A DNA stretch of 37,125 nucleotides, from assembly GCA_017883235.1 (NCBI GenBank), contig JADGNY010000067.1:1-37125 (forward strand), given 5' to 3'. Source of the stretch: Thermoanaerobaculia bacterium (lineage in GTDB: Bacteria; Acidobacteriota; Thermoanaerobaculia; Gp7-AA8). The position numbers and the translations under genes are program-made. Shown here in pieces: positions 16,875 to 23,226 of this stretch (positions are counted from its first letter, which is position 1; every line of letters starts with the position of its first letter). The notes under the pieces are model-generated. The model worked only from the letters and a program-made list of their open reading frames with translations. It was not told the origin of the DNA and did not search any database.

Positions 16875-17279
16875 ATGGCTGGTTACTCAGACACCCCGCT
16901 TGCAACAAAGCTCGGAATCAAGCCCGGCTTCACGATCTTCACTTACGGCGCGCCAAAGAACTACGCATCCCTCCTCGCGCCACTCCCGGACGACGTGCTG
17001 TTCTTCAAGAAGTTGATCAAGGCGGTCGACCTCATTCACATCTTCACGGACTCCGCCGAGGAGCTGAACGCGAAGCTGCGAATCTGGCGCAACGTCATGA
17101 GAACCGACGCGCCGATCTGGGTTTCCTGGCCGAAGAAGACCTCGAAAGTGCCGACCGACATCACCGAGGACGTCATCCGCAGGATCGCCCTGCCGATGGG
17201 ATTCGTCGACATCAAGGTCTGCGCGGTGGACAAGACCTGGTCAGGATTGAAGCTGGTGGTGAGGAAAGGGATGCCGTAA
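16875..17279 (+). CDS. DUF3052-family protein
   Basis: A 134-residue cytoplasmic protein beginning MAGYSDTPLATKLGIKPG, the typical opening of DUF3052 proteins. IWVSWPKKTSKVPTDITEDVIR and the closing segment VCAVDKTWSGLKLVVRK also match that small family, whose function is unknown. Length is normal. It begins after a dispersed repeat block with a leaderless-type -10. Its last 43 bp and the following 96 bp are duplicated at 18114-18254, beyond the DUF1348 gene. Confidence 0.88.
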   Translation: MAGYSDTPLATKLGIKPGFTIFTYGAPKNYASLLAPLPDDVLFFKKLIKAVDLIHIFTDSAEELNAKLRIWRNVMRTDAPIWVSWPKKTSKVPTDITEDVIRRIALPMGFVDIKVCAVDKTWSGLKLVVRKGMP

Positions 17280-17375
17280 CCCCTCCCGCCGGGCATCGTG
17301 GCGTCGGAAAATACAGTGCCTTGCGCAAGCAACCCGTCTCGCGGTCGAGCGGTATCGTGCTTGCCAGCTCGCCCT
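17237..17375 (+). repeat. Direct repeat, copy 1 (end of DUF3052 gene plus spacer)
   Basis: This 139-bp segment starts inside the DUF3052 gene (CTGGTCAGGATTGAAGC) and ends GCTTGCCAGCTCGCCCT. It matches 18114-18254 with a few substitutions and small indels. The DUF1348 gene lies between the copies. Confidence 0.95.
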
Positions 17376-17414
17376 GGCCTGCCGTTGGCGCTCCGCTTGA
17401 GCGAGGGGTTAGGC
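17376..17414 (-). other. Half of an integron attC-like site
   Basis: Read on the minus strand directly after the DUF1348 stop: GCCTAAC (17408-17414, fits RYYYAAC), a 6-nt spacer, then CTCAAGCGGAGCGCC, the order R''-spacer-L'' of attC sites. A distant partner GAGGGGTTA lies at 17278-17286 (read on minus) with an imperfect GTTACGGC in place of GTTRRRY. The L' half is not convincing, so the site is partial or decayed. Confidence 0.4.
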
Positions 17415-17415
17415 G

Positions 17416-17895
17416 TCACAGGCCAAGGTCACTAAGCCCAGGATGGTCGTCAGGCCTTCGACCCAAAGGCCAGTAGTACTTTCGCTCGGCAGCAGTGATC
17501 GGGAGGTCGTTGATGCTTGCGACACGTCTCTTCATGAAGCCACGATCGTCGAACTCCCAGTTCTCGTTGCCATACGAACGGAACCAGCTTCCAGAGTCGT
17601 CGTGCCACTCGTACGCGAAGCGCACGGCGATGCGGTTGCCCGCGCAGGCCCAAAGTTCCTTGATCAGGCGATAGTCCAGCTCCTTCGCCCACTTCCGCGT
17701 GAGGAACTGCTGTATCGCTTCACGACCTGAGAGGAATTCTGCCCGATTTCTCCATACGCTATCTGGTGTGTACGCCAGTGCTACGCGGTTCGGGTCACGT
17801 GTGTTCCAGGCATCCTCTGCCATTCGAACCTTCTGGGCCGCGCCCTCGGTCGTGAATGGCGGCAACGGGGAACGAGGTTGCTCTGAGGTGGACAT
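17416..17895 (-). CDS. DUF1348 / SnoaL-like (NTF2 fold) protein
   Basis: The 159-residue protein reads [26 protein letters not shown] (first helix and strand), [47 protein letters not shown] and a terminal [15 protein letters not shown], all typical of DUF1348, a small NTF2-like family of about 150 residues without known reaction. ATG 17895 is preferred because GGAGG lies at 17904-17908. The frame continues upstream, but only through a repeat. The stop is 1 bp from an attC-like GCCTAAC, as in integron cassettes, and the gene sits between duplicated sequences, so it looks imported. Confidence 0.85.
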
Positions 17896-18009
17896 GTCAG
17901 TTGCCTCCATGCGCTTTGTGCCGCCCGACGGACCCGCTGCAGGCGCGATTTGGGCGGCATTGCCCGACGAGCTAGCAGCAAGTCGCGCGGCGGAGACGCT
18001 TCGACTGGT

Positions 18010-18099
18010 GGGGTCAGGTCGAAAGTCGAAAGTGCCGAAGGACAGTATATCGCCACTGCGACAGGCCAGCGTCGGCACTTCGACTTTCGACCCGACCCC
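18010..18099. repeat. Inverted repeat, 28 and 27 bp arms
   Basis: GGGGTCAGGTCGAAAGTCG and on (18010-18037) is almost the reverse complement of 18073-18099 (one substitution, one indel). The arms enclose 35 bp. It lies between DUF1348 and the second copy of the DUF3052 end. GGGGTCAGGTC-type arms are common in small non-autonomous elements, which is recollection rather than proof. Confidence 0.8.
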
Positions 18100-18113
18100 A
18101 CGCACACTTGACT

Positions 18114-18254
18114 CTGGTCAGGATTGAAGCCGGTGGTGAGGAAAGGGATACGTTAATCCCTCCCGCCCCGGGCATCGTGGCGTCGGAAAATACAGTGCCT
18201 TGCGCAAGCAACCCGTCTCGCGGTCGAGCGGTATCGGGCTTGCCAGCTCGCCCT
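18114..18254 (+). pseudogene. Direct repeat, copy 2: truncated 3' end of the DUF3052 gene
   Basis: It matches 17237-17375. The first codons read SGLKPVVRKGIR then stop, against SGLKLVVRKGMP in the intact gene, so only the last dozen codons are present without the rest of the gene. The spacer that follows (GTGGCGTCGGAAAATACAGT and on) is conserved. Differences between the copies show the duplication is not recent or came from a relative. Confidence 0.85.
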
Positions 18255-18388
18255 GCGATCCTGTCACCTCACCGCGGAAACGCGGAAAACCGGTAACCGG
18301 TCGAGGGATGATTCAACCAGCGCCGGCCCCGCGTAACGTGATCACCCGGCCACCGGCTCACGCGCCAGCCAATACGTCTCCTGTTCCC

Positions 18389-18743
18389 GTCAACACGTTC
18401 GGAGTTGCCGCCAACAAGTTCGCTATTGCCGTCAACAAGTTACGAGTTGGCGTCAACAAAATTTTGTTGACGCCAACACATTCGGAGTTGCCGTCAACAA
18501 GTCCGGTGCTGCCGTCAACATGGTCGACGTTGCCGTGAACAAGGCCGCAGTTGCCGTCAACACGTTCGACGTTGCCGTCAACAAATCGAGAGTTGCCGGC
18601 AATACGTTCGGAGCTGCCGCCAACAGGTTGCTTGTTGTCGTCAACAAAATCCGAGTTGGCGCCCCCAAAACTGTGTCGACGTCAACAAACAGGATGTTAC
18701 CGTCAACAAGTTTTTTGTTGAGGTCAACAAATTTTTGTTGACG
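18389..18743. repeat. 21-bp tandem array, 17 units
   Basis: Core GTCAAC (or a one-base variant such as GCCAAC, GTGAAC) starts at 18389, 18410, 18431, 18452, 18472, 18493, 18514, 18535, 18556, 18577, 18598, 18619, 18640, 18661 (degenerate), 18681, 18702 and 18723. All steps are 21 bp except two of 20. Consensus is about GCCGTCAACAAGTTCGNNGTT. Read as protein it gives heptads (VNKxxVxV type) on plus or LLTATSN type on minus, but the two 20-bp steps break either frame. Confidence 0.95.
18446..18477. repeat. Perfect 32-bp palindrome inside the 21-bp array
   Basis: The half-site GTTGGCGTCAACAAAA is followed at once by its exact reverse complement. It sits exactly at the first 20-bp step of the array. 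A weaker version (GTCAACAAAT then TTTTGTTGAC, one mismatch) occurs at 18723-18742. Confidence 0.95.
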
Positions 18744-18902
18744 CGGTCGAGGATCGAGGTTGGTTTCGGTGCGGCGGTCTGACGGGTGGCCTGGCTATCA
18801 ATAACTGATGGATTGCGATCGACCTCCGCGTTGGCCCTCACAAGTAGCTTTGTTCTCAGTCTGTAGCGGAAAGTCAAAAAACGAAGGTGTGTCCCCCGCG
18901 GA

Positions 18903-19736: not shown

Positions 19737-19788
19737 CTGAATGCCTCCTTGTGGGACGAAGACGCGGATCAGCAATGTAGCACGCGAC

Positions 19789-19896
19789 ACCTAACGGATC
19801 TGCGGTTCACCCGCACGAACCGCGACGCGCTGAAGTATAGCCCCGCGATGCAGCAACGCAGCGGTTCGTGTCGGGTGCAACCGCTTGTGGGGTGGC
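19789..19896 (-). other. Integron attC-like recombination site
   Basis: Read on the minus strand. R' is GTTAGGT (19789-19795, fits GTTRRRY), then a 6-nt spacer and the L' arm at 19802-19823. The L'' arm at 19861-19884 is its reverse complement except for two unpaired bases (19871 and 19878), like the extrahelical bases of attC; the loop is 37 nt. R'' at 19889-19896 is degenerate. The length of 108 bp is within the attC range. It lies 26 bp after the stop of the HTH gene and 53 bp before the next start. Confidence 0.5.
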
Positions 19897-19921
19897 GCCG
19901 CCCATGCTCTGGTGCCTTGAG

Positions 19922-20401
19922 CTACTTCCCGAATAGAGTGATCAGATCCCAAAAGGCGACGGGTCGCAACGTCGCCGACGGATCATAATCAGCCCAATTC
20001 TTAGGATTCTCGACCTTGGATACGTAGAGACGATCAAGATCGTTGACTTGGTTGTCTCGGACGGGAATTCGAGCGGTGCGCCCATGAAGCACAAGCTCCC
20101 ATGTCCCGCCACCTGGTGCGCCACCTGCCAGCCACGTCATTTGGCCACCCATCCCTTCGATGAGGCTGCGAACGGCTTCGTACGGACGGTTATCAGTTGC
20201 TGTCGTCATGTCGCTTCTCCCTTTGATCAGCCGATAGATTGCGGTGTGATCTGTAGTGACTCCGTGCTCATTGAGAAAGCTGGCGATCTCACGCCAGCTG
20301 TAGCCCTTGTTTCGTAGGAGCTCGATCGCCTCGCGGTGGGCCTCGAGAGCTTGCTTGGTGGGAGCCGCGCGGGCGGCTTCGAGAGGTGTCAGTTGTTTCA
20401 C
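19922..20401 (-). CDS. Putative HTH-containing protein
   Basis: A 159-residue protein. Residues 22-62 (HREAIELLRNKGYSWREIAS, then FLNEHGVTTDHTAIYRLIK) form a helix-turn-helix of the kind found in resolvases and plasmid TraK-like proteins. The C-terminal half (about 70-159, with MGGQMTWLAGGAPGGGTWEL) is not recognised. GTG 20401 is supported by a near-perfect promoter placed so that transcription starts at the start codon; the frame continuing to 20620 runs through repeats. The stop is followed by an attC-like site, so it may be a gene cassette, and its HTH could regulate neighbours. Confidence 0.7.
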   Translation of the reverse strand: MKQLTPLEAARAAPTKQALEAHREAIELLRNKGYSWREIASFLNEHGVTTDHTAIYRLIKGRSDMTTATDNRPYEAVRSLIEGMGGQMTWLAGGAPGGGTWELVLHGRTARIPVRDNQVNDLDRLYVSKVENPKNWADYDPSATLRPVAFWDLITLFGK

Positions 20402-20436: not shown

Positions 20437-20535
20437 CTAAATTCAACACGTCGCGGCACGCGCGGAGGCGGGGAGACGCGGAGGAGGAGTTGGCGCTTTT
20501 CTTCTCAGCGCGGCCGCGGATCGGGGCGGTAACGC

Positions 20536-21076
20536 GAGGTGCCAGGCCTTCGTTTTTCGGCGACTCGTAACTCATTGCTAAACCAAGTACTTCAGGCAGT
20601 CGTATTTGTACAGTCGACAAGAGTCGCAGTTATTCGTATCAGAGTTCTGAAGCGCTTCTGGTACCCCCCCACCCGCCAGACTCCTGATATTTGCGCGTAA
20701 CCCGGCGGCGAGACCCTTCGGCTCCGCTCAGGGCAGGGCTACCGCCGGGCCAGCCGGCGAGACGCCAGCGCTCCGGGCGAAGTGCTTGATCGGCGGCACA
20801 GGTCACTCGCGTGCGGGACGCACGCGGTCCCAGGGAGGGGGCGATTACCGCTCCGGGTAGAGGAAGAAGAGCTCGTTCTTGCGGACGAAGGCGTTGCGGA
20901 GGAGGAAGACGTAGGGGCGCTGGCTCTTGTAGGTCATCAGCACATCCGTCTTTGTCTTCTGGACGGCGGTGGAGAGGCCGTAGGTGGTCCAGGAGAAGGA
21001 CTGCATCCGCGTCGGGGGGAGGAGGGCGCGGCGGGGCATCTTCATGAAGGCGGTGTGAATGCGGCTGCGGGTGGTG
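20536..21076. repeat. Direct repeat copy A (PIG-L 3' end and downstream spacer)
   Basis: About 540 bp closely matching 22016-22555, with scattered substitutions most frequent in 20640-20700. It contains CTTCGTTTTTC, TAACTCATTG, the CCCTTCGGCTCCGCTCAGGG block and the last 77 codons of the PIG-L gene. 20402-20535 holds a 16-bp-type repeat (about 20460-20485) and no gene. Confidence 0.95.
20845..21076 (-). pseudogene. Truncated PIG-L deacetylase 3' fragment
   Basis: It encodes the C-terminal 77 residues of the PIG-L protein at 22324-23226 (from TTRSRIHTAFMKMPRRALLP to FFLYPER) with the reading frame intact but no N-terminus and therefore no PHxDDE metal site. Homology to the intact gene stops at 21076, 2-3 bp before the stop codon of the GH18 gene. 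An internal ATG at 21045 could start a 66-residue peptide, but there is no reason to think it is made. Confidence 0.88.
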
Positions 21077-21078
21077 AG

Positions 21079-21915
21079 CTATCCGGGCGGGTTCCAGTTG
21101 CCCGGGCCGTACCAGTCGTTGACGAGCTGTCCCATCAGATCGATATTCGATTGCTCCTGGAACGCAAAGATCATCACTCCTGCGTAGCCGTTTTTCAGGA
21201 GCCACTCGACGTCCTGATCGGGAGTGGGAGACGGCTGGCCTGCCCAGAAGCCGAGCGAGACCTGACTGGGCGTGAGACTGTTGCCGGGACCGAATTGGGT
21301 ATACGGCACGAGCCTCTCCGCAGGTGGGCGGCCGTAGCTCATCTCCGACCCATAAGTGAGATTGGCGGCGATCGTATGGCCGTTCGAGTTCGACCGGAAA
21401 TACTGGTGGTCGCTCCAGAGGGCCTTCGTGATCATTTTGTCGGGAATGATCTGCTTCAGGAGCGTCGTCACCATAATGAGCGAGCAGTAGTTCGGCGTGC
21501 CCTCGCTGTATTCGTCGTCGATGTCGATTCCGTCGAGCCCGTACTTATCGACGACCTCGTCTTTCAGATATTGCGCGAAGTTCATCGCGTCCGCTTCAGA
21601 GGTGAATTCTGACCATCCGACTTGCGACCATCCGTTGCCCACCGTTAACAGAACTTTGAGGCCTTTCTGCTGGAGGTACTGCACCGATCCATCGCTCAGC
21701 ACCTGCTGGATGTTCGGGTTGAACGGTTTCGCGGTCGGAGGTTTGTTGTTGTTCGCGCGAAGGTACGGCAGCTCCGACGAGGCGTAGTTCCCGGCGAAGA
21801 TGCAGGCGACGTTGATCGCCGGCTCTCCGTTTGCCAGGGTGTATCCTGCGACGTTCCTGAGCTGCTCTGACGTTTGAGGATCGATGTACGCGGTCATCAG
21901 GCCGGGTCGTACCAT
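21079..21915 (-). CDS. GH18 family, EndoH-like endo-beta-N-acetylglucosaminidase
   Basis: The 278-residue protein has the GH18 catalytic motif DGIDIDDE at 128-135 (Glu135 acid, Asp133 assisting) in the context KYGLDGIDIDDEYSEG, closely resembling EndoH-type enzymes, which cleave between the two core GlcNAc residues of N-glycans. The preceding strand is KVLLTVGNGWSQVGW, and substrate-side features include PDQDVEWLLKNGYAGVMIF. ATG 21915 is preferred for its AGAGGAG Shine-Dalgarno (complement at 21921-21927). No signal peptide is visible, unusual for this activity. The gene sits exactly between duplicated PIG-L sequences, so it was inserted there. Confidence 0.85.
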   Translation of the reverse strand: MVRPGLMTAYIDPQTSEQLRNVAGYTLANGEPAINVACIFAGNYASSELPYLRANNNKPPTAKPFNPNIQQVLSDGSVQYLQQKGLKVLLTVGNGWSQVGWSEFTSEADAMNFAQYLKDEVVDKYGLDGIDIDDEYSEGTPNYCSLIMVTTLLKQIIPDKMITKALWSDHQYFRSNSNGHTIAANLTYGSEMSYGRPPAERLVPYTQFGPGNSLTPSQVSLGFWAGQPSPTPDQDVEWLLKNGYAGVMIFAFQEQSNIDLMGQLVNDWYGPGNWNPPG

Positions 21916-22012
21916 TGATTCTCCTCTCGCTGATGGGTAAGGAAGGGAGGATATACGATGGTCTGTCATTACGCAAGTCGGCCCACCGACTCAGGTGGTC
22001 GTAAATGCAGGC

Positions 22013-22039
22013 AAACGAAGGTGTCAGACCTTCGTTTTT
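22013..22039 (+). terminator. Hairpin with T tract
   Basis: AAACGAAGG-TGTCAGA-CCTTCGTTT followed by more T residues (22035-22039) on the plus strand. It has the form of an intrinsic terminator but no plus-strand gene needs it; similar sequences at about 20545 and 18877 suggest a dispersed REP-like element. Confidence 0.4.
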
Positions 22040-22555
22040 CACTCGTAACTCATTGCCAAACCAAGTACTTCAGGAAGTCGTATTTGTGCAGCCGACGAGC
22101 GTTGCAGTTATTCGCATCAGAGTTCTGAAGCGCTTCTAGTCCCACGCCCAACCGGCAAGCACTGACATTCCCGTGTAACCCGGCGGCGAGACCCTTCGGC
22201 TCCGCTCAGGGCAGGCTACCGCCGGGCCAGCCGGCGAGACGCCAGCGCTCCGGACAAAGTGCTTGAGCGGCGGTAGAGGTCACGGCGCGTGCGGGACGCA
22301 CGCGGTCCCAGGGAGGAGGGCGATTAACGCTCCGGGTAGAGGAAGAAGAGCTCGTTCTTGCGGACGAAGGCGTTGCGGAGGAGGAACACGTACGGGCGCT
22401 GGCTCTTGTAGGTCATCAGCACGTCCGTCTTTGTCTTCTGCACGGCGGTGGAGAGGCCGTAGGTGGTCCAGGAGAAGGATTGCATCCGCGTCGGGGGGAG
22501 GAGGGCGCGGCGGGGCATCTTCATGAAGGCAGTGTGGATGCGGCTGCGGGTGGTG
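22016..22555. repeat. Direct repeat copy B (within and after the intact PIG-L gene)
   Basis: Partner of 20536-21076. The part 22324-22555 is coding for PIG-L; 22016-22323 is the downstream spacer with the CCCTTCGGCTCCGCTCAGGG block. The stretch 21916-22323 holds no gene. Confidence 0.95.
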
Positions 22556-23226
22556 TGGACGAGATAGCCGAGTCGCGAGGGGTGGAGCTGCAGTTCGTCG
22601 AGCGCCACATCCGTGACCTCGGCGGCGGCGCTGTGATCGGGGTGCAGGTCAAAGGGGACAGGGGCGATGACCGTGGTCGGCTGGACGATGGCCATCACCT
22701 TCTTGATGTCGTTCATCAGGTTGGCGTAGGTGTACTCGGCGCGCGGTGACACGGCGTCGGCGTACGGGACGCTGTTCTCTCCGGTGGCCTTGGAGCGGAC
22801 GATGGCGCCGGGGTTGTCGACCATGGTGCGCAGTCCGCGGTCGGGATAGCCGAGGAGGAAGCAGTGATCGGGGGGGATGCCGAGGATGCTCATGGCCTTG
22901 CGGGACTCACGGATGCGCACGTTGCCGACGCTGAGGAAGTTCGCGGTGGTCGGCTCGAAGGTCTTGTACATCAGAGTCGCCGAGATACGGTTGCAGTCGC
23001 CGGCGGTGAGGAAGACGACGTAGACGTCCGCGCCGTTGGCGAGGGCGTCGATGGCGTAGCCGCCCGCACCGATCGACTCGTCGTCGATATGCGGGGCGAT
23101 GATGAGGATGCGGTCCTGCTGCCCCGCCGCCTGGAGGCGCGGATACTGCTGCATCTTCTTCGCGTCGTTGGTCCGAGCCGGATTGAGTAAAAGCATGGTG
23201 GCAAAGGCGATCAGGGTGAGAAACAT
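22324..23226 (-). CDS. PIG-L family N-acetylglucosaminyl deacetylase-like protein
   Basis: The 300-residue protein has a hydrophobic N-terminus (MFLTLIAFATMLLL, a signal or anchor). The zinc-binding PHIDDE lies at 45-50 and HPDH at 195-198, the two signatures of PIG-L/LmbE deacetylases that remove acetyl groups from GlcNAc-type sugars. Length is typical. A TATAAT box lies 15 nt before the ATG (complement at 23242-23247). Its last 77 codons are duplicated at 20845-21076. An exported position would suit modification of envelope or environmental glycans, and the neighbouring EndoH-like enzyme also acts on GlcNAc. Confidence 0.9.
   Translation of the reverse strand: MFLTLIAFATMLLLNPARTNDAKKMQQYPRLQAAGQQDRILIIAPHIDDESIGAGGYAIDALANGADVYVVFLTAGDCNRISATLMYKTFEPTTANFLSVGNVRIRESRKAMSILGIPPDHCFLLGYPDRGLRTMVDNPGAIVRSKATGENSVPYADAVSPRAEYTYANLMNDIKKVMAIVQPTTVIAPVPFDLHPDHSAAAEVTDVALDELQLHPSRLGYLVHTTRSRIHTAFMKMPRRALLPPTRMQSFSWTTYGLSTAVQKTKTDVLMTYKSQRPYVFLLRNAFVRKNELFFLYPER

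Follow-up and report, generated by a model that had tools for sequence, protein, structure and literature searches.

Gene-end duplications around a GH18 gene and other added genes in a Thermoanaerobaculia draft genome: candidate traces of integration by single crossover

The end of a gene for a PIG-L family deacetylase is duplicated, in register and as a direct repeat of about 540 bp (20537-21076 and 22019-22555), on the two sides of a GH18 endo-beta-N-acetylglucosaminidase-like gene of the EndoH type. The window in which the two genes lie, 37,125 nucleotides long, is the entire contig C99 of an assembly of 6.92 Mb in 246 contigs. The repeat is real and beyond chance. With about as much confidence as doubt, we suggest that the arrangement arose when a donor fragment with joined ends recombined into the shared gene tail by a single crossover.

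The two copies align end-to-end over 543 columns with 91.7% identity, repeat families D3, D4, D6, D7, D9 and D11 making up the pair at offsets of 1477-1482. This alignment bears out the initial annotation, which had placed about 540 bp (77 PIG-L codons plus spacer) on both flanks of the GH18 gene and had described one copy as part of the intact PIG-L gene and the other as headless. Copy B (22019-22555, minus strand) consists of the final 77 codons of the intact gene (22324-23226, minus strand, 300 aa) and about 305 bp of downstream spacer, and copy A (20537-21076, minus strand) is a PIG-L tail and spacer without the head. Within the 77 repeated codons, stop included, eight sites differ, all eight of them synonymous, and there are no indels; the tail in copy A encodes a protein sequence 100% identical to PIG-L residues 225-300. 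The spacers differ at 28 of 302 ungapped sites (about 9%) and by six small indels. Between the copies lie 942 bp, made up of a single gene, GH18, and a 103-bp leader (21916-22018, minus strand) that has a Shine-Dalgarno AGGAG, 52% GC and no homology to the PIG-L spacer. The GH18 stop codon (TAG, minus strand, 21079-21081) is separated by two bases from the repeat edge. The position of this edge, 21076, was correctly given in the initial annotation, and its description of the junction as exact was slightly too strong: past the junction there is a degenerate likeness in 8 of 10 bases (CGGATAGCTC in copy A and CGGCTATCTC in copy B), and the position of the join is therefore known to about 10 bp only.

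The full 540-bp unit has no further copy in the 6.92-Mb genome, where the dispersed repeats are pieces of the spacer only; the end motif has 65 matches genome-wide (at most two mismatches) and its reversed control has none. A mobile dispersed element was considered as the cause and rejected, the whole unit being confined to the PIG-L/GH18 locus.

PIG-L orthologues in genomes of the same family adjoin the same porin-like and aldehyde dehydrogenase genes, and on the downstream side of PIG-L synteny between genomes is absent. Neither the GH18 gene nor a second PIG-L tail is present in G001 (84% protein identity), G002 (76%) or the other same-family genomes. The initial annotation had proposed looking for strains with PIG-L that lack the GH18 insert, and in all of these genomes, which like all those compared are draft assemblies, the target is single and uninterrupted; the protein identities to G001 and G002, 84% and 76%, lie beyond strain level.

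A second insertion with the same anatomy is found 4 kb away at 17237-18255. Here, a DUF1348 (SnoaL-like) gene (17416-17976, minus strand; Pfam PF07080, E=8e-67) lies between direct repeats, of which the first (17237-17376, plus strand) holds the final 14 codons of the gene at 16875-17279 together with 97 bp downstream, and the second (18114-18255, plus strand), 94% identical, is a headless tail plus spacer. The target gene, which has no Pfam match, is one that we take to be DUF3052-like. Beside its orthologues in G001 and G002 the DUF1348 gene is absent. The initial annotation missed both this instance and the genome-wide pattern of which it is part.

The genome was scanned for non-dispersed repeats 100 bp or longer and at least 80% identical, separated by a gap of 200 bp or more and spaced no more than 6 kb apart. 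The scan covered 1.25 of the 6.92 Mb and returned 18 pairs of direct repeats at 14 loci and, by the same criteria, no inverted repeats. The resulting density is about 11 loci per Mb, about 6 per Mb being clear coding cases, and both values are approximate, some of the sampled contigs having been picked for spacer-repeat matches. At the clear coding loci the repeat is the 3' end of the intact gene in eight of eight cases and the 5' end in none. Their targets are PIG-L, the DUF3052-like gene, an ABC transporter, an aminotransferase, an S41/tricorn-type protease, an MFS transporter, a Xer-like recombinase and UvrA; where Pfam gave no call, the target is named from its translation. The weaker loci (L049, L065, L067, L068 with 5.5 kb, L074 and L111) are non-coding, repeat-protein or whole-gene duplications. 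Repeat lengths range from about 120 to 540 bp.

The cargo is varied (SnoaL-like DUF1348, ParE/Phd, Mrr-NACHT and Schlafen AlbA_2 proteins, among others) and unrelated to the target genes. Integrase or excision genes are absent from the inserts examined, and cargo GC is lower than target gene GC at PIG-L (64% against 58% for GH18) as well as at the ABC, aminotransferase, S41, MFS, Xer and UvrA loci. The UvrA gene (L109 1-6000; G000 contig C44) is accompanied by two headless tails, one lying behind a ParE/Phd toxin-antitoxin pair and the other behind a gene for a 565-aa protein; the two scars apparently stem from sequential insertions at one gene end. At the aminotransferase locus (L066 13605-17974; G000 contig C1) the repeated gene end is 368 bp long and the inserted gene encodes a 1022-aa Mrr_cat-NACHT protein, possibly an uncharacterised defence gene; a defence-system search of the cargo proteins gave no PADLOC matches. 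Similar arrangements occur in other genomes: in G002, which belongs to the same genus, a methyltransferase 3' region is present in three copies at one locus, and in G009, an assembly of 50 contigs, a 219-bp repeat of gene end plus spacer surrounds about three small genes. The 155 kb of G010 and 132 kb of G012 that were scanned gave no convincing case, and for the methyltransferase locus of G002 and the aminotransferase locus no insert shared with its scars was found in relatives.

The differences between the copies bear on how the repeats were formed. If copy A of PIG-L had evolved neutrally since the split, about 41% of the differences would be expected to be synonymous. The PIG-L tails, with 8 synonymous and 0 nonsynonymous differences, depart from this expectation (P=8e-4 for a neutral copy A). 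The corresponding test gives P=1.6e-3 at the ABC locus (15/4), P=1.4e-8 at the aminotransferase (38/9), P=6e-4 at the Xer-like gene (18/5) and P=4e-5 at UvrA (19/3); at short coding overlaps the test is weak or negative (DUF3052-like 1/3, S41 3/1, MFS 2/0). At PIG-L, derived changes fall on both tail copies by a rough polarisation against outgroups that are 82% identical, and spacer divergence (28/302) agrees with synonymous divergence (about 0.15). From the synonymous-only differences, the changes on both copies and the agreement of spacer and synonymous divergence we infer that for most of the time since they separated both tails were probably parts of working genes, and that the headless state arose recently; the copies resemble alleles of diverged lineages. 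Across loci, synonymous divergence ranges from 0.06 to 0.6, as expected for separate events.

These data speak to a first alternative, insertion with long target duplication, which has been described for Helicobacter pylori restriction-modification genes (Nobusato et al. 2000, as cited in PMC1643837 and PMC4978471). In the Helicobacter cases, as far as these citing accounts describe them, one or a few genes likewise lie between long direct target repeats, and at PIG-L a long direct repeat of the target similarly flanks the added gene. In its strict form, this reading has 100-550 bp of the target copied at insertion, giving copies that are initially identical. The anatomy matches the Helicobacter reports, but the headless copy should then decay neutrally, yet at five loci most of the differences are synonymous and the divergence is constrained and allele-like; on the strength of the codon test we consider strict long target duplication improbable. 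Unlike in the Helicobacter cases, the cargo here is diverse, there are many loci per genome, the copies are allele-like and all clear coding cases are 3' ends; moreover, the empty site here is known from related genomes rather than at strain level.

Alternatively, PIG-L may once have had a complete tandem duplicate, the first 224 codons of which were lately replaced by GH18. Such a history accounts for purifying selection on the copy A tail, but we regard it as quite improbable: a second PIG-L was found in no relative, no remnant of the PIG-L head or its upstream region is present near GH18, and the replacement would have to recur at UvrA, ABC, aminotransferase and other loci, with the 3' end spared each time. 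A translated fusion between GH18 and the PIG-L tail, in which the tail would have been under selection until the TAG arose, draws on the same synonymous-only differences and on the agreement of the reading frames (GH18 ...PPG-TAG-LTTRSR and PIG-L ...GYLVHTTRSR). Frames agree by chance in one case out of three, however, the stop sits outside the firm repeat and the other loci are left unexplained, and we judge this fusion very improbable.

The main rival is an assembly artefact, in which sequences of two coexisting strains, only one of them carrying the insert, were joined such that the insert arm runs into the tail and spacer of the other strain. The PIG-L copies behave like strain alleles, the source genome is a 246-contig draft, and two alleles could make a graph bubble at the repeat boundary; donor and recipient alleles in one genome and two strain alleles joined by an assembler give a similar trace. 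Several features of the data point the other way. There is no N at the joins in the 1.25 Mb, the insert end and the tail start share no sequence of k-mer length, and divergence is very uneven among loci. Three strains would be required at UvrA, and three copies are present at two loci. Coding gene ends in bare tandem, which would be expected just as often, are not prominent, the near-tandem pairs being mostly non-coding, and the same anatomy is seen in the assemblies of G002 and G009, the latter with its 50 contigs. We consider an artefact of this kind unlikely overall; if it were the cause, the pattern would be a warning about the whole class of duplications that flank genes in drafts assembled from mixed communities.

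In the model that we prefer, integration by a single crossover, (i) a donor fragment from a related lineage would carry the 3' portion of that lineage's PIG-L gene, the spacer behind it and GH18, (ii) the fragment ends would be joined, GH18 end to PIG-L middle, and (iii) one homologous crossover would put the joined fragment into the recipient PIG-L tail, restoring an intact PIG-L gene with GH18 behind it and leaving a headless tail plus spacer on the far side. The donor allele would already have diverged before integration, and for this reason the differences between the copies would be those between alleles of a functional gene. A homologous join combined with an illegitimate one would have an equal outcome. 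We infer circularisation of the fragment (or an equivalent join), the uptake route and the PIG-L-spacer-GH18 order in the donor; the source genome has two Ku loci and ComEC, which make end joining and DNA uptake possible and are proof of neither. The single-crossover signature is present, i.e. a direct repeat of the homologous segment with an intact gene on one side and a truncated copy on the other, and the divergence of the PIG-L copies would fit donor and recipient alleles. Two features are not accounted for by the crossover itself. With random fragment ends, an illegitimate join two bases past the GH18 stop codon would be a coincidence. The strict 3'-end bias does not follow from the mechanism and presupposes selection against products of the 5' type; such selection could operate if a repeated 5' end were to express a truncated protein. 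The initial annotation had named single crossover through a shared gene end next to tandem duplication with replacement, and the former is the better supported of the two by the empty relatives, the synonymous-only tail and the recurrence, the latter being less economical.

The arrangement has parallels in known systems. In tRNA-type islands at gene 3' ends, the intact gene at one end of the island is matched by a displaced 3' fragment at the other. The loci described here share this layout, whereas the inserts are without integrase or excision genes and repeat length is variable; the 942-bp insert, with only GH18 and its leader, holds no integrase gene and is not an integrase island. Integration of circularised linear DNA by single crossover is documented in E. 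coli (Amarir-Bouhram et al. 2011, PMC3240628), and in its product the target gene end is likewise partly duplicated, over 109-950 bp, around the added DNA; unlike here, this was a laboratory conjugation with a plasmid, and the copies came from identical DNA. Homology-facilitated illegitimate recombination in competent bacteria also combines one homologous anchor with one non-homologous join, but its predicted product deletes chromosomal DNA (PMC3240628), whereas here there is a duplication.

The recurrence at many unrelated genes of this uncultured bacterium points to a general way of adding single genes downstream of conserved ones. Tentatively, and regarding it as possible but doubtful, we propose that this lineage gains accessory genes behind conserved genes by recurrent, integrase-free recombination with the 3' end of a related allele, each event leaving a headless tail as a scar that would record donor divergence. 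If so, headless tails would be dated scars giving the entry site, the donor divergence and, at multi-scar sites, the order of events, and gene gain without mobile-element enzymes would be directly countable in a genome.

By sequence, the PIG-L protein is assigned to Pfam PF02585 (E=9e-25; 88 bits against a gathering score of 28.2), and it scores far under the BshB and Mca/MshB cut-offs. The GH18 gene (21079-21915, minus strand) is predicted to encode 278 aa. Its open reading frame was first drawn at 21079-21969, a start that is probably wrong; the ATG at 21915 is preferred because AGGAG lies five bases upstream and the homology of the relatives begins there. The protein aligns full-length with the EndoH profile NF045482 (NCBIfam, E=5e-32) at 111 bits, under the cut-off of 300, and lies above the gathering score of the GH18 family PF00704, consistent with a GH18 member that is EndoH-like only. 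Its putative catalytic motif DGIDIDDE (residues 128-135), which has the DxDxE pattern, aligns with DGVDFDDE of EndoH, PDB entries of EndoH are matched by sequence, and the predicted fold (mean pLDDT 78, from an alignment of three sequences only) gives a TM of 0.75 to 6ve1/1c90. The protein is predicted, from sequence and fold, to be like Streptomyces endo-beta-N-acetylglucosaminidase H, also of GH18, in fold and DGxDxDxE motif, at an identity of 26-27% and below the NCBIfam cut-off. The closest relatives in a species-representative collection are found at two loci only, in an Acidobacteriaceae MAG (66%) and a Fluviicola MAG (55%), and at both the PIG-L tail is absent beside GH18; a search of the 100 nearest genomes and of 396 genomes from the phylum gave no equally close homologue. 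These two relatives and a paralogue in the same genome (C46) have an N-terminal domain of about 85 aa that the GH18 protein lacks. This domain (GADWSxFIxxVPNCTxEAKRIALxNP...FFFCR...GSAPQCDSY; L039 3589-3840, L040 5752-6000 and L028 4845-5100) is conserved on EndoH-like GH18 proteins and has no Pfam match. A phage, plasmid or viral origin of GH18 was considered and rejected, the matches being weak, partial and under 40% identity, without a relative on a viral contig. With regard to GH18 as a possible integron cassette, a scan of 20500-22400 with strict R-box criteria gave no attC-like site; these criteria also miss a degenerate attC at 19783-19905.

The initial annotation had suggested that GH18 and PIG-L may form a functional pair. 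This is unsupported: unrelated cargo has the same anatomy and PIG-L stands alone in relatives. Given the same construction with unrelated cargo elsewhere, the adjacency of the two genes is a by-product of gene arrival, and GH18 is tied to PIG-L by position only. Both genes are on the same strand, and read-through expression of GH18 from PIG-L is possible judging from this layout.

Other elements in this part of the window include a palindromic GGGGTCAGGTCGAAAGTCGAA element at 18008-18101, with 96% complementary arms and a 48-bp loop, which is dispersed in the genus and REP-type-like, and a 21-bp tandem array (GTTGCCGTCAACAnnn) at 18362-18760, which has inverted arms and is related to sequences at other places in the genome. 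The attC-type integron recombination site at 19783-19905, behind an HTH gene (19922-20401), has a long stem, an extrahelical base and one degenerate R box. Several near-identical attC sequences lie on contig C45 of G002, and others are found on contig C165 of the source genome together with broken pieces of an integron integrase.
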